This document shows positions 18,038 through 22,058 of a stretch of 64,000 bases of DNA, piece by piece. Source of the DNA: Paramecium tetraurelia. Its lineage: Eukaryota > Ciliophora > Oligohymenophorea > Peniculida > Parameciidae. The notes below the pieces were generated by a model. The model did not search any database. It was not told the DNA's origin and saw only the letters and a program-made list of their open reading frames with translations. Where the stretch lies: assembly GCF_000165425.1 (NCBI RefSeq), contig NW_001799644.1, forward strand, positions 191,215 to 255,214, in the 5' to 3' direction. Within the stretch, counting starts at the first letter, position 1. Each line of letters opens with the position of its first letter. The position numbers and the translations under genes were made by a program.

Positions 18038-18835
18038 TCAATGTTGTGCAAGAACTTCTTGTTCAAGCACCATTTAACCTTAAGACTAAGCTTATGGTTT
18101 CATTTGGTTTAGCCACTAAATAGCAGATTCAACGTCCCCATTAAAAATGGATAAGAATTTGTATGCCTTCTTAGGATTAATATTCTTTCCATTTAAATGA
18201 GCGAACTTTTCCTTAAATCCACCTCTATGTTTTCTAAATTTTTGATACTCTTCTGGTGATTTCCTAGTTTTGTGTTTTTCAATTGATTTTTTGATTGAAT
18301 GACAATTATCTTTGTTTTTGATCCTTAAAAACTTATCAAGTATAGGTTCTAAGTTTCCTTCAAATTTCAATAATAACTTAGCTATTTTCTTTTCATTAGT
18401 GTATCCCAATTCCTTAAGTTTTTCAAATTATACTGTGAATCCTAATTCTTAGATCATTAATTCAACAGGTTTATCAAATTTCTTAAACTTTTTCTTACTT
18501 AATATTTCAATTGATTTTTCCACATCTCCATTAGTTATTAGTAGAAATTTCAAATTTTTGTTAACATGATTGAATCCTTTCTCTATTAGTTCCTAATTTT
18601 TATGAAGCCATCCCATATTTTCAATTGTTTTTAATGCTGTTTATCTCTTGTCTTCATTTTTATTTTAGTTCTCATTGTAAGCAAGGATAACCTTATGAAT
18701 ATCACCATTATGTTTATTTAATTGATGATAGTTAAACCATGGGTTTGTTAACCCTTAGGCAGTCAGCTGATCATGCTTCTCTAAGTAGCCAGCCTTGATT
18801 AATTTATGAATGACCTTTTGTTCTTTAAAGTTCAT
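18038..18835 (-). CDS. UBA-like helical repeat protein
   Basis: Intronless, 265 aa. At least four helical units share the UBA-like ending N/E-G-[DN]-[VIL]-x-x-[VIS]-I: NKHNGDIHKVILAYN, LLITNGDVEKSIEILSKK, LLKFEGNLEPILDKF and LSIFNGDVESAIQWLNQ. Each is preceded by a leucine-rich helix. In UBA domains this pattern lies at the start of helix 3 and helps bind ubiquitin. An Arg/Lys-rich insertion with HRGG sits between the last two units. Function is unknown; ubiquitin binding is an inference. The gene lies just downstream of the snoRNA cluster on the same strand. Confidence 0.75.
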
Positions 18836-19212
18836 GATAATAATAATAAAATTATTTTATTGCTTCTACTTTTTATAAAGGCAAGGTATATTAAATTCTG
18901 ACAATTTTTCTGAATAATTCGGACCAAATTATCTGTCATAATTGTTATCATTTTAACGCTTAATTCATCAACATGTTATTATGTTAATTTGTAATTAGCA
19001 TAATACATCCTATAATAAGAATATTTATTTTTATATATATGCATAAATATTTGAGATATAAAGCCAATTTAAATAATAGGTCTATTTGAAGCCAAATATT
19101 GTATTTTTATACAATATTTTAATTTTAGACTTCAGATTTATGATCCTAATAGCAAATTCTCAATATTAATTTATCTTAATTAGTTAATAATTAAATATTA
19201 ATAATACGAAAA
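18836..19212. other. Intergenic between UBA-like gene and snoRNA cluster
   Basis: AT-rich. One isolated TCATCA (minus-strand box C-like) at 18966-18971 lacks a suitably spaced box D partner, so no additional snoRNA is called. Confidence 0.4.
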
Positions 19213-19279
19213 AATCAGATTGTGAATTCCGATCAATGCCCATAGGCTCAATCAAGAGGTGTCAGTTTTTCATCACATA
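19213..19279 (-). ncRNA. C/D box snoRNA candidate 1
   Basis: On the minus strand GTGATGA (box C, 19276-19270) and CTGA (box D, 19218-19215) are 51 nt apart, with the cluster's AT-rich linker on the 5' side. The guide next to box D is complementary to the plus-strand segment TTGTGAATTCCGATC. I could not match it to rRNA from memory. Confidence 0.5.
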
Positions 19280-19302
19280 TATATATATAATAGTATAATT
19301 AA

Positions 19303-19368
19303 TTTCAGACAGCCAAGGGTTGTAATTCATGTATAGTCATAGACTCTAGTTCTTATAAGTCATCATAT
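19303..19368 (-). ncRNA. C/D box snoRNA candidate 2
   Basis: Minus-strand ATGATGA (box C, 19366-19360) and CTGA (box D, 19308-19305). The target-sense sequence directly beside box D reads ACAGCCAAGGGTTGT. Length and flanking AT linkers match its neighbours. Confidence 0.55.
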
Positions 19369-19385
19369 ATATAATATTTTTAATT

Positions 19386-19445
19386 TATCAGATAGGAGCG
19401 AAAGATTGGAATCATGATAAATCATGGACTACAAAATCATCACTT
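19386..19445 (-). ncRNA. C/D box snoRNA candidate 3, likely 25S guide
   Basis: Minus-strand GTGATGA (19443-19437) and CTGA (19391-19388). The target-sense sequence beside box D, ATAGGAGCGAAAGATT, differs by G:U-compatible changes from the conserved 25S/28S rRNA segment ATAGGGGCGAAAGACT (from memory), a known methylation area in yeast and animals. This is good support for a real guide. Confidence 0.65.
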
Positions 19446-19465
19446 TATAATATAATTGCATTTTA

Positions 19466-19531
19466 GATCAGAGATCTTGGTGGTTAATTTCATCATTCTA
19501 TTTCTAGATTAACAAATATTTTGCATCATTC
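19466..19531 (-). ncRNA. C/D box snoRNA candidate 4, likely U18-like
   Basis: Minus-strand box C is AATGATGC (19530-19523), with an internal ATGATGA (C') at 19496-19490 and CTGA (box D) at 19471-19468. The 13 nt beside box D, AGATCTTGGTGGT in target sense (19472-19484), equal a conserved 25S/28S rRNA segment as I recall it, the region targeted by U18. Confidence 0.65.
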
Positions 19532-19546
19532 TATATAATTTTATTT

Positions 19547-19608
19547 GATCAGACGTAGCCGTATCATCAGAGTCTTTAAGACTGGGGCGGCAATAAAATT
19601 CCTCATTA
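19547..19608 (-). ncRNA. C/D box snoRNA candidate 5, likely 25S guide
   Basis: Minus-strand box D CTGA (19552-19549), an internal CTGATGA (19570-19564), and a weak box C TGAGGA near 19606-19600. The stretch GACTGGGGCGG (19580-19590, target sense) equals a highly conserved 25S/28S rRNA segment from memory, so the D' guide is the better one here. Confidence 0.6.
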
Positions 19609-19623
19609 TAACAATTTTATTTT

Positions 19624-19713
19624 TTTCAGGCAAATGCCTCAAATAATCATTTATGTGAGAATAATAGATGGATGTCTATTGAATCTCTCATACTCGTCAT
19701 CGATTCATCACAT
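19624..19713 (-). ncRNA. C/D box snoRNA candidate 6, likely 25S guide
   Basis: Minus-strand GTGATGA (box C, 19711-19705) and CTGA (box D, 19629-19626). Directly beside box D is GCAAATGCCTC (target sense, 19630-19640); CAAATGCCTC is identical to the conserved 25S/28S rRNA segment GTAGCCAAATGCCTCGTC as I recall it. It is the longest member of the cluster. Confidence 0.65.
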
Positions 19714-19736
19714 ATATATATATATATATTTATTAT

Positions 19737-19798
19737 AATCAGATAATGGATAAGTCGTCTTTAATTCAGAAGCAGAACTGTTATGAATTCCTCATATA
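19737..19798 (-). ncRNA. C/D box snoRNA candidate 7
   Basis: Minus-strand weak box C ATGAGGA (near 19796-19790), an internal CTGA (TTCAG on plus, 19765-19769) and box D CTGA (19742-19739). Possible guides are complementary to ATAATGGATAAGTCGTC and AAGCAGAACTG in target sense; targets unassigned. Confidence 0.45.
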
Positions 19799-19995
19799 TA
19801 TTGATTTTATTGATAACTATTATAATTAATAAAAATAATCCCAAATTAAAATATGGGTTTGGAATAATGTTTTTTTTAAATTAAAAAATCCAATAAACTT
19901 ACTAATAATTAGATGATATTGTATTTTAAAGTTGCATTCCATTAGTGCACAATAAAGTAAAAATAAATATGATTAATATTAAATAAAGCATATAA

Positions 19996-22058
19996 TCAAA
20001 AGTATAATTTCTATAATTATGCTATTATTTAAGAAATAGCATGCTATTCTGAGTCTTATTGCCTTTCATATACTATTTACTTGAATATATTTGCTTCACT
20101 TTCTTGAGTAAAAACCAATTCTAATTTTTCATCATCTATTAAATTCATAAAGAGTATTATTTATTTTTGATCTTATTAGGTAATTAGTTTCCATTCATCT
20201 AAATGAAAGTGCAAACTATTAGTAATAATTTCTAAATTGCATAATTTAATTAATCCATCATTAAATGATATTTCATTGTAATCACGAGGATTTTTTGTTT
20301 GACCGAAAGGATTCTTTAGCCAATTTTTTTAAAAACTTAAATCTAAAATTAGCAAGAATTTAATAATCTAATGAGTTACTGGAATCTTGTAAAGGATTTC
20401 TACATTTTTGGCTTGTAGAGATAATACAATCTAAGAAAAATATCTATAATAGTCAATAGTTTGAGATTGAATATGTTCTTCCATTTGCCTTAATAATTTT
20501 AATCTAATATATGAAATGAAAAAATTCTAATCTTAATCTTCAAGCAACTAATTAATGATATCAATTGATTTCAAGCAATTATTTAAGGTATTAATTGATT
20601 TTTATTGTTCATCCTACATAACGTTTAGTAAATTTATAATAAACATTTGTTTTTGGGATTTAGAAATTATAGATAAAGTTTCTGATGTCAGTACCGTTTC
20701 TAATAGAGTTAAAACTGAATGATAATGTTCTTCATTAAGACTATTTTTATAAAAGAATATATTTACAAATGATTTGTATATTCATCTTAAAACAATAGAT
20801 TTTCCTTAAATAAAATACTTGAATTTAGCTTTTATATGTATCCTAAGGTTTGCAATGCCTCATAAAGATCCTGTTTTGGAATCTCTTTGGCAAATAACTA
20901 ATTATATGAAACATATGATATGGTTTAAGTGATGGATTATAAAAAACCATTTAATCGTTCTCCATCTTTACTCTCTTTTTAATTTGTTTTAAAAAACTTT
21001 GCGCATAAGTTTACTAATTCTGGGTCTTTGGTTGGCACATAGTTTAATTCCAATTAAATAGATTGATATTTAGGAATTTCCTGTGAAAATAATAGTATGA
21101 GGATGCTTATTAGTATTCTCTTGCTAAATTTAATCTCAGCATTGAAAAAGCTTGTTAAAATCAGACTACTCTATTGTTTAAGACTCTCATCTTTCTATTA
21201 TGATGTTTATAGAAGAGGTAAAATGATGATATTAAAAAATAGATTATCTAAGATCTAAGGAATAAGCTATTATAATTACATCAACCAAATATGGTGCTAT
21301 TTGATACAAATCTTTAAAAAAGTAATACATATTCTTTAATTCTTCATGAAAGTAATCTTGATCTTTGCTCCATTTATATAACAGTTCTTTCATAAATGCA
21401 ATGTGATTTGTTAATACTTATAGAAATGGATAGCATTGAAGATATTGCAATAATTCATTCTCCATCTAACTGTTTTATACGATTTAAAGTATCGATAATA
21501 ATATATGTCTTGTATACGTTCGAGTTAAATTATCCTTAGCATTAAAAAAGCTCTAAGAGTATAGCAGAAGTGGGAATTATGCATATCTCTAAAGAAGTTA
21601 TAATCAATTGTTACTTAATTAAAGAATAAATTGATGTTATCTCTTGTTACCTTATTTGATAGAATTTTAATAAAATTAATATAGTAATCCTAAGTTTCAT
21701 CATTGGTTAGATCATAGTTATAAATAATAAATTCGTTTAATTAAGGCAAAGAGAGAAGCACAACAATGTTTTTTCCAATGTTTGTTCTAATCAATTTAAA
21801 TAATTTGTTACATCAGCATTGAAATTTGATGCAGGATAGTATTTACTATATTGGTATCCTTAGTTGATTTTAATATTCTCACAAATTCTTCTATAATCTT
21901 AACTTCAATGAATTAACTAGATATTATTCATAAAATTACTCAAAGAGATCTGATTCTTTTTAATCTCCTAGAATGGCGAGTTCCGAGAGGGAAGAGACTG
22001 ATTCTATTATGTTAACATTCTGCTTTAAATTATTAGAATGACGAGTAAATAAATCCAT
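19996..22058 (-). CDS. CLEC16A: CLEC16A-like (FPL domain) protein
   Basis: Starts MDLFTRHSNNLKQN. The N-terminal third matches the FPL domain of CLEC16A/Ema: SLSELAILGDQKESDLFDQF corresponds to the WGDQ-containing helix, followed by IEVKIIEEFVRILKS, and later LTNDETQDYYINFIKILSNK and INLFFNQ, which mirror the region of the human protein around its YYISFLKTLS helix. The rest is helical and leucine-rich. The first intron is 23 nt (21917-21939); others exist but are not all placed, so internal exon limits are uncertain. CLEC16A acts in endosome and mitophagy traffic. The protein, about 650 aa, is shorter than the human one. Stop TGA at 19996-19998. Confidence 0.7.

Follow-up and report, generated by a model that had tools for sequence, protein, structure and literature searches.

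Small nucleolar RNAs (snoRNAs) encoded in polycistronic clusters are known in plants, yeast, and trypanosomes. In the ciliate Tetrahymena thermophila, the neighboring box C/D snoRNA genes TtnuCD32 and TtnuCD33 each have an upstream sequence element (USE), located 98 and 118 bp upstream, which the available excerpt of that report reads as independent transcription (PMC6315972). For Paramecium tetraurelia, the annotation used in a 2019 study is given with 142 snoRNAs in the excerpt of that study (PMC6735861), and the extracts of a 2017 paper (PMC5485702) attribute a handful of ~80 nt introns with snoRNAs to Chen et al. 2009 (RNA 15:503). The locus described here occupies the minus strand at positions 19213–19800 (~590 nt) of a 64,000-nt stretch of the P. 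tetraurelia genome (contig NW_001799644.1, positions 191,215–255,214), referred to as the window. This cluster may already be among the annotated Paramecium snoRNAs. It is very probably a polycistronic box C/D snoRNA gene with one USE promoter of the type that precedes small nuclear RNA (snRNA) genes.

The initial annotation of the window had proposed about seven minus-strand C/D modules, each with a CTGA box D and a box C that reads TGATGA or deviates from it at one position. This layout is confirmed. All seven modules (M1–M7 in 5' to 3' order) contain an RUGAUGA box C near the 5' end and a CTGA box D near the 3' end. From M1 to M7, the boxes C read ATGAGGA, GTGATGA, ATGAGGA, ATGATGC, GTGATGA, ATGATGA, and GTGATGA, with one mismatch in M1, M3, and M4. 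Boxes C of neighboring modules start 77–105 nt apart, the distance from the start of box C to the end of box D is 56–86 nt, and successive modules are separated, from box D to box C, by 19–28 AU-rich nucleotides. TA repeats precede M2, M6, and M7, and in the related loci on contigs C66 and C41 (see below) also M5; at a guess, these repeats may have a role in processing.

Comparison with Rfam produced matches to C/D snoRNA families for each module. M4 (19464–19533; box C 19523–19529, box D 19468–19471) scored 52.6 bits against SNORD24 (RF00069, cut-off 41), and is the U24 homologue of the cluster. Modules that stay below the gathering score are named here as a type of a family without being assigned as members. 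M2 (19622–19717; box C 19705–19711, box D' ATGA 19688–19691, box D 19626–19629) scored 69.3 bits against plasmodium_snoR21 (RF01864, cut-off 90) and 20.1 bits against SNORD15 (cut-off 75). Since it misses the SNORD15 cut-off, we label this module U15 type only. The SNORD31/GlsR4-type module M3 (19543–19613; box C 19600–19606, variant box D' CTTA 19577–19580, box D 19549–19552) reached 26.6 bits with RF00089 (cut-off 40), and the TtnuCD16-type module M7 (19213–19276; box C 19270–19276, box D' TTGA 19252–19255, box D 19215–19218) reached 37.9 bits with RF02292 (cut-off 75). The matches of M1 (19736–19800), M5 (19380–19453), and M6 (19298–19375; family TtnuCD15) have scores and cut-offs that we quote as an unordered set: 29.6/45, 26.7/41, and 25.0/55. 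For three modules, the E values of the family matches are 5.6e-9, 5.1e-8, and 1.1e-5.

The guide segments of these modules were compared with large subunit (LSU) ribosomal RNA (rRNA). Because the Paramecium assembly contains no match to a 23-mer from eukaryotic 28S rRNA or to the 5.8S family, LSU rRNA of other eukaryotes was used as a proxy. With the same 23-mer, we located a partial LSU (L003) and a complete LSU together with small subunit (SSU) rRNA (L002, PKCZ01000144.1) in records of bacterial metagenome-assembled genomes. SSU rRNA was represented by one proxy. Two other sources, L001 (~110 nt of 28S rRNA only) and L004 (two fragments), were left out of the guide tests. As for the origin of these sequences, L002, L003, and L004 all hold eukaryotic rRNA inside bacterial records, and L002, with full-length matches to SSU and LSU rRNA, looks like contamination. 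L001 (IMGVR_UViG_3300029287_000004) is a contig resembling a single-stranded RNA phage that opens with ~110 nt of eukaryotic 28S rRNA, and is apparently a chimeric assembly.

In all seven modules, the segment that pairs with the proxy LSU ends 0–1 nt from D or D'. The numbers of Watson–Crick pairs from M1 to M7 are 9, 10, 11, 13, 13 (plus one G·U), 11, and 10. M5 falls to 7 pairs if no G·U is allowed. The initial annotation had named four modules with rRNA-like segments. All four of these segments do pair with the proxy LSU, and the count has to be raised to seven. M2 contains guides before D' (GATGACGAG) and before D (GAGGCATTTG); the guides of M3 (TGCCGCCCCAG, 11 bp) and M7 (CTGACACCTC, 10 bp with L002) precede D', and the guide of M4 (ACCACCAAGATCT, 13 bp) precedes D. 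The D' segment of M4 pairs over 6 bp only, and in the same test the M4 D' guide of the C66 paralogue pairs over 13 bp. Altogether, we count nine good guide segments, all of which pair with LSU rRNA. No convincing target in the proxy LSU emerged for box D of M1, M3, or M7.

As a control, we examined 340 CTGA sites on both strands in the rest of the window. Ten or more pairs with at most one G·U were found at 17 of these sites, and 13 pairs at none. In the cluster, 4 out of 10 CTGA sites reach at least 10 pairs, and two of these reach 13. Addition of the three D' variants CTTA, ATGA, and TTGA, which were picked by eye, raises the count to 6 of 13 sites; M3 and M7 attain their 10–11 pairs only at such eye-picked boxes. 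The 9 pairs of M1 are matched by 66 of the 340 control sites. Since control sites also pair, single guides are weak evidence, and the case is carried by the set as a whole together with the family matches and the spacing of the target sites.

Target nucleotides were assigned by the D+5 rule and numbered on L003. For M2, these are A2650 and G2657, 7 nt apart. M6 points to C2734 and U2790, 56 nt apart, and C2734 lies 84 nt from A2650. The predicted target of M4 is C1802, and that of the D' guide in its C66 counterpart is A1814, at a distance of 12 nt. The excerpt of the Arabidopsis 25S 2'-O-methylation map (PMC8053127) lists A2282 and G2289 (U15), C2366 and U2422 (both SnoR37), and C1447 and A1459 (U24). 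The spacings of 7, 84, and 56 nt and the predicted target nucleotides are the same as in these map entries, and so is the spacing of 12 nt, given the D' guide of the C66 paralogue. M2 shows the pair of D and D' sites 7 nt apart that is expected of U15, and the 12-nt spacing of SNORD24 sites is recovered from the D site in the window and the D' guide in C66. M5, M1, and M3 point to G, A, and G in the proxy LSU. By order and approximate distance only, these sites would be G917 (U80), A1143 (U38), and G2620 (U31) in the part of the Arabidopsis map at hand. These three modules do not lend themselves to an exact spacing test because the rRNAs differ in length. If TTGA is taken as its box D', M7 would target a U within the GAGGUGUCAG segment of L002, and the exact nucleotide shifts with the reading of D'. 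We take this region of L002 to be the snR48/SNORD1 target.

Upstream of M1, we found a USE-like promoter element, CAAACCCATATTTTAATTT (19843–19861, minus strand), with the core AAACCCATA at 19852–19860. The same core precedes all six U2 and U4 genes that we found in the genome (four U2 and two U4 genes, L048–L053, on contigs C153, C191, C14, and C200), where ACCCATA begins 60–61 nt before the gene. In the cluster, AAACCCATA stands 63 nt before the box C of M1, both in the window and at the related locus on contig C224. The fixed distance that marks a USE in an snRNA-type transcription unit is therefore found here as well. At random positions, an exact AAACCCATA occurred within 31 offsets in 1 of 5000 cases. 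The core occurs once in the cluster: 50–80 nt ahead of M2–M7, the best match to AAACCCATA has 3–5 mismatches, which is the chance level. An element before M1 and only chance-level matches before M2–M7 point to one promoter of this type for all seven modules.

Three further observations concern this element in the rest of the genome. A search for AAACCCATA followed at 40–70 nt by RTGATGA and then by CTGA returned four matches, and none with the reversed pattern. The cluster loci fall outside this strict pattern because box C of M1 is ATGAGGA. These matches are C/D candidates that group into two conserved pairs, C11/C64 (L054/L056; 65 nt) and C17/C206 (L055/L057; 63 nt). A weak SNORD29 match (30 bits against a cut-off of 48) is seen for the C206 candidate; its three companions have no Rfam match at E ≤ 1. 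Furthermore, the exact 14-mer AACCCATATTTTAA occurs at 11 sites in the genome, compared to 1 site for the reversed control, and three of the 11 are the C41, C66, and C225 clusters. We considered this 14-mer as a general promoter word and dropped it, since the other eight sites have no recognized RNA gene nearby; the shorter core AAACCCATA is the informative unit. Finally, all six U2 and U4 genes share a downstream element, ACAAACGAAATTT(A), ~14–19 nt past the gene, which is likely an snRNA 3' processing signal.

A search of the Paramecium assembly itself (231 contigs, 69.07 Mb) with a 751-base query covering the cluster returned at least three other loci, and the counts that follow are lower bounds. 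C66 matches with 82% identity over 522 query bases, C41 with 81% over the same bases, and C224 piecewise, at 86%, 80%, and a borderline 78%. C66 and C41 carry M2–M7; M1 is eroded in both, with identities to the window copy of 29 and 22%. At C224, by contrast, M1 is intact with guide, boxes, and spacing as in the window. The rest of this copy (L015, C224:203800–204900) is decaying, with recognizable remnants of M4, M6, and M7, and box C of M7 reads GCGATGA instead of GTGATGA. Among the four loci found, the window holds the sole complete seven-module copy.

Conservation follows the modules. Identities of the window to C66 and C41 are 86 and 85% for M2 (87% in a separate comparison), 75 and 73% for M3, 85% each for M4, 96 and 95% for M5, 84 and 82% for M6, and 90% each for M7. 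The linkers are 61 and 54% identical, the downstream sequence 15% in both, the stretch from the element to M1 52 and 48%, and the sequence further upstream 48 and 37%. The promoter element itself stands out with 100 and 89% (19 of 19 positions in C66, and 17 of 19 in C41 with the changes at the end of the element) against 37–52% in its flanks. In C224, two extra nucleotides follow the core of the element. Between C66 and C41, M2–M7 are 98–100% identical, the linkers 84%, and the dead M1 51%. The variant D' box CTTA of M3 is kept in both. At the level of sequence, this pattern is that of selection on the modules and on the promoter element. In C66 and C41, the element is kept beside a dead M1, and M2 starts 120 and 113 nt downstream of it, an arrangement most simply explained if the element was kept for the distant modules M2–M7.

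The surroundings of the four loci are also related. The C224 copy sits in a block colinear with the window, and frames to either side of the cluster are conserved there (window ~15.0–17.4 kb and 22.1–26.5 kb). The downstream gene has relatives (47% at C66 and 45% at C41) at 3–4 kb from the clusters, and a relative of the upstream gene lies just before the C66 cluster (33%); none was found at C41 or C224. The most plausible reading of the paralogous loci is that they are ohnologues left by successive rounds of whole-genome duplication. The cluster region and several other loci met in this analysis occur as duplicated pairs. Isolated copies of the M1 guide at C109 and C65 were rejected as snoRNAs; in both, the guide follows a 27-nt intron-like stretch and the frame is open across the junction, as in coding sequence. 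Besides these two and the C224 and C225 loci, the guide recurs at seven sites, either exactly or with one mismatch.

Rfam matches, site spacing, selective conservation among paralogues, and the single promoter element together support the polycistronic snoRNA gene that the initial annotation had suggested. The boxes, the family matches, the LSU complementarity with its spacing, the selective conservation, and the lack of a second internal promoter element are features of the sequence, from which we infer transcription as one RNA, processing, assembly, and methylation. In this model, the USE AAACCCATA would set the start of transcription ~61 nt downstream, where the first snoRNA begins. One transcript would bear all seven snoRNAs, the linkers would be cut and trimmed by nucleases, and each C/D RNA would be bound by fibrillarin, Nop56, Nop58, and Snu13, the standard proteins of small nucleolar ribonucleoproteins. 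The resulting particles would guide 2'-O-methylation at conserved LSU rRNA nucleotides, namely those paired with the fifth position upstream of D or D'. The operon copies have probably been divided after the duplications, such that C224 retained the promoter and essentially M1, C66 and C41 the promoter and M2–M7, and the window all seven modules. If so, a promoter kept where the nearest snoRNA has died implies service to distant modules, and an RNA operon can lose its modules one at a time, from either end, once the whole genome has been duplicated.

Several observations weigh against this assignment. Six of the seven modules (M1, M2, M3, M5, M6, and M7) stay below the gathering scores of their families, and the guides had to be paired with proxies since the assembly contains no match to the rRNA probes. 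A simple test for adjacent pairs detects a terminal stem of 4 bp, of the kind that would join the RNA ends and support the K-turn, at M1 and M4 only, and 1–2 bp at the other five modules. In the RNAalifold fold of the unit M2–M7, the C and D boxes of the individual modules do not come to lie next to each other. The box D region of M3 is CAGA in C66 and C41, as opposed to CTGA in the window. The eight AACCCATATTTTAA sites outside the clusters yielded one chance-level Rfam match at E ≤ 1 and neither an snRNA nor a snoRNA, so that possession of this word is not enough to define a promoter. Behind the four cluster loci, ~330–385 nt of downstream sequence contain no match to ACAAACGAAATTT with up to three mismatches.

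Given the separate USEs of TtnuCD32 and TtnuCD33, the modules could also be seven tandem genes, each transcribed independently from its own promoter. However, there is just one AAACCCATA in the cluster, and matches before M2–M7 are no better than at random positions. Moreover, with only 19–28 nt from one module's box D to box C of the following one, an element at a spacing of 60 nt would fall inside the preceding snoRNA. Promoters of another type could take its place, and we regard independent transcription as unlikely. Release from introns or from the 3' part of a host gene is very unlikely. A candidate host exists in the same-strand protein gene that ends at 19996 and has a relative beside the C66 cluster, and a few Paramecium introns of ~80 nt do contain snoRNAs, according to the extracts of PMC5485702. 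The same extracts give ~25 nt as the length of Paramecium introns, compared to a unit of ~590 nt. In addition, a conserved snRNA-type element separates this gene from M1, and C224 retains the element and M1 where the upstream protein is unmatched.

The window copy could be decayed or silent and retained by chance. Such loci occur in this genome, since C224 is clearly decayed except for M1. Yet each of the seven window modules retains its C and D boxes along with a guide, M2–M7 are far more conserved than the linkers in comparison with C66 and C41, and no other locus has all seven, which makes decay quite unlikely. A chance arrangement, or a protein-coding origin of the signal, is scarcely conceivable. 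The initial annotation had noted that the region holds no protein frame. In fact, a plus-strand frame of 282 residues is open over part of the cluster when read with table 6, a length explained by TGA being the only stop in the Paramecium code. The concentration of conservation in the modules and the frame-breaking indels between paralogues argue that this frame is non-coding, and the E values of the family matches and the site spacings speak against chance. We therefore retain the polycistronic gene as the best description of the cluster.

The cluster is flanked by protein genes on both sides. The gene at its 5' side (19996–20781) is encoded on the same, minus strand. At its 3' side, positions 18038–18835 (minus strand) encode a protein of 265 amino acids with a weak match to UBA_HOIP (25.1 bits, cut-off 22.4). 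An additional snoRNA was sought at 18836–19212 by comparison with the three paralogous loci, and no clear conserved block emerged; the best hit is a short AT-rich match with an E value of 7e-4. Genes read through TAA and TAG, also in a diverged relative. The available part of PMC5485702 describes Paramecium as having introns of ~25 nt and TGA as the sole stop. Together with the putative 27-nt intron and the duplicated pairs of loci, the codon use would suit a macronuclear genome from the Paramecium aurelia group.

The kind of gene described here is already known; the fresh part is the operon with a single USE and its pruning after duplication. Among the literature matches listed, titles and abstract openings mention no polycistronic snoRNA unit from a ciliate, which is weak evidence because Chen et al. 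2009 and Andersen and Nielsen 2012 are not covered. With this cluster, polycistronic snoRNA genes that have a defined promoter element would be known from ciliates too, and its nine predicted pairs of guides and sites on LSU rRNA are directly testable. Its four duplicated copies with complementary losses serve as a natural experiment on the dismantling of a multi-RNA gene after genome duplication and on the role of the ciliate USE.

Compared with the polycistronic clusters of Arabidopsis, as presented in the excerpt of PMC8053127, the Paramecium cluster is alike in its tandem arrangement of different C/D snoRNAs. The single processed precursor belongs to Arabidopsis and would apply to Paramecium by analogy. 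Predicted targets coincide with the U15, U24, and SnoR37 sites listed in that excerpt, and with those of U31, U38, and U80 by order and approximate distance. The two systems differ in that the promoter element in Paramecium is of the ciliate snRNA-type USE. In this respect, the cluster resembles TtnuCD32 and TtnuCD33 of T. thermophila, which the excerpt of PMC6315972 describes as ciliate C/D snoRNAs with a snRNA/snoRNA-like USE upstream. M6 and M7 add to this likeness by matching, below the cut-off, the Tetrahymena families TtnuCD15 and TtnuCD16. In contrast to the two Tetrahymena genes, which have a USE each according to that excerpt, the Paramecium cluster places one USE before seven modules.
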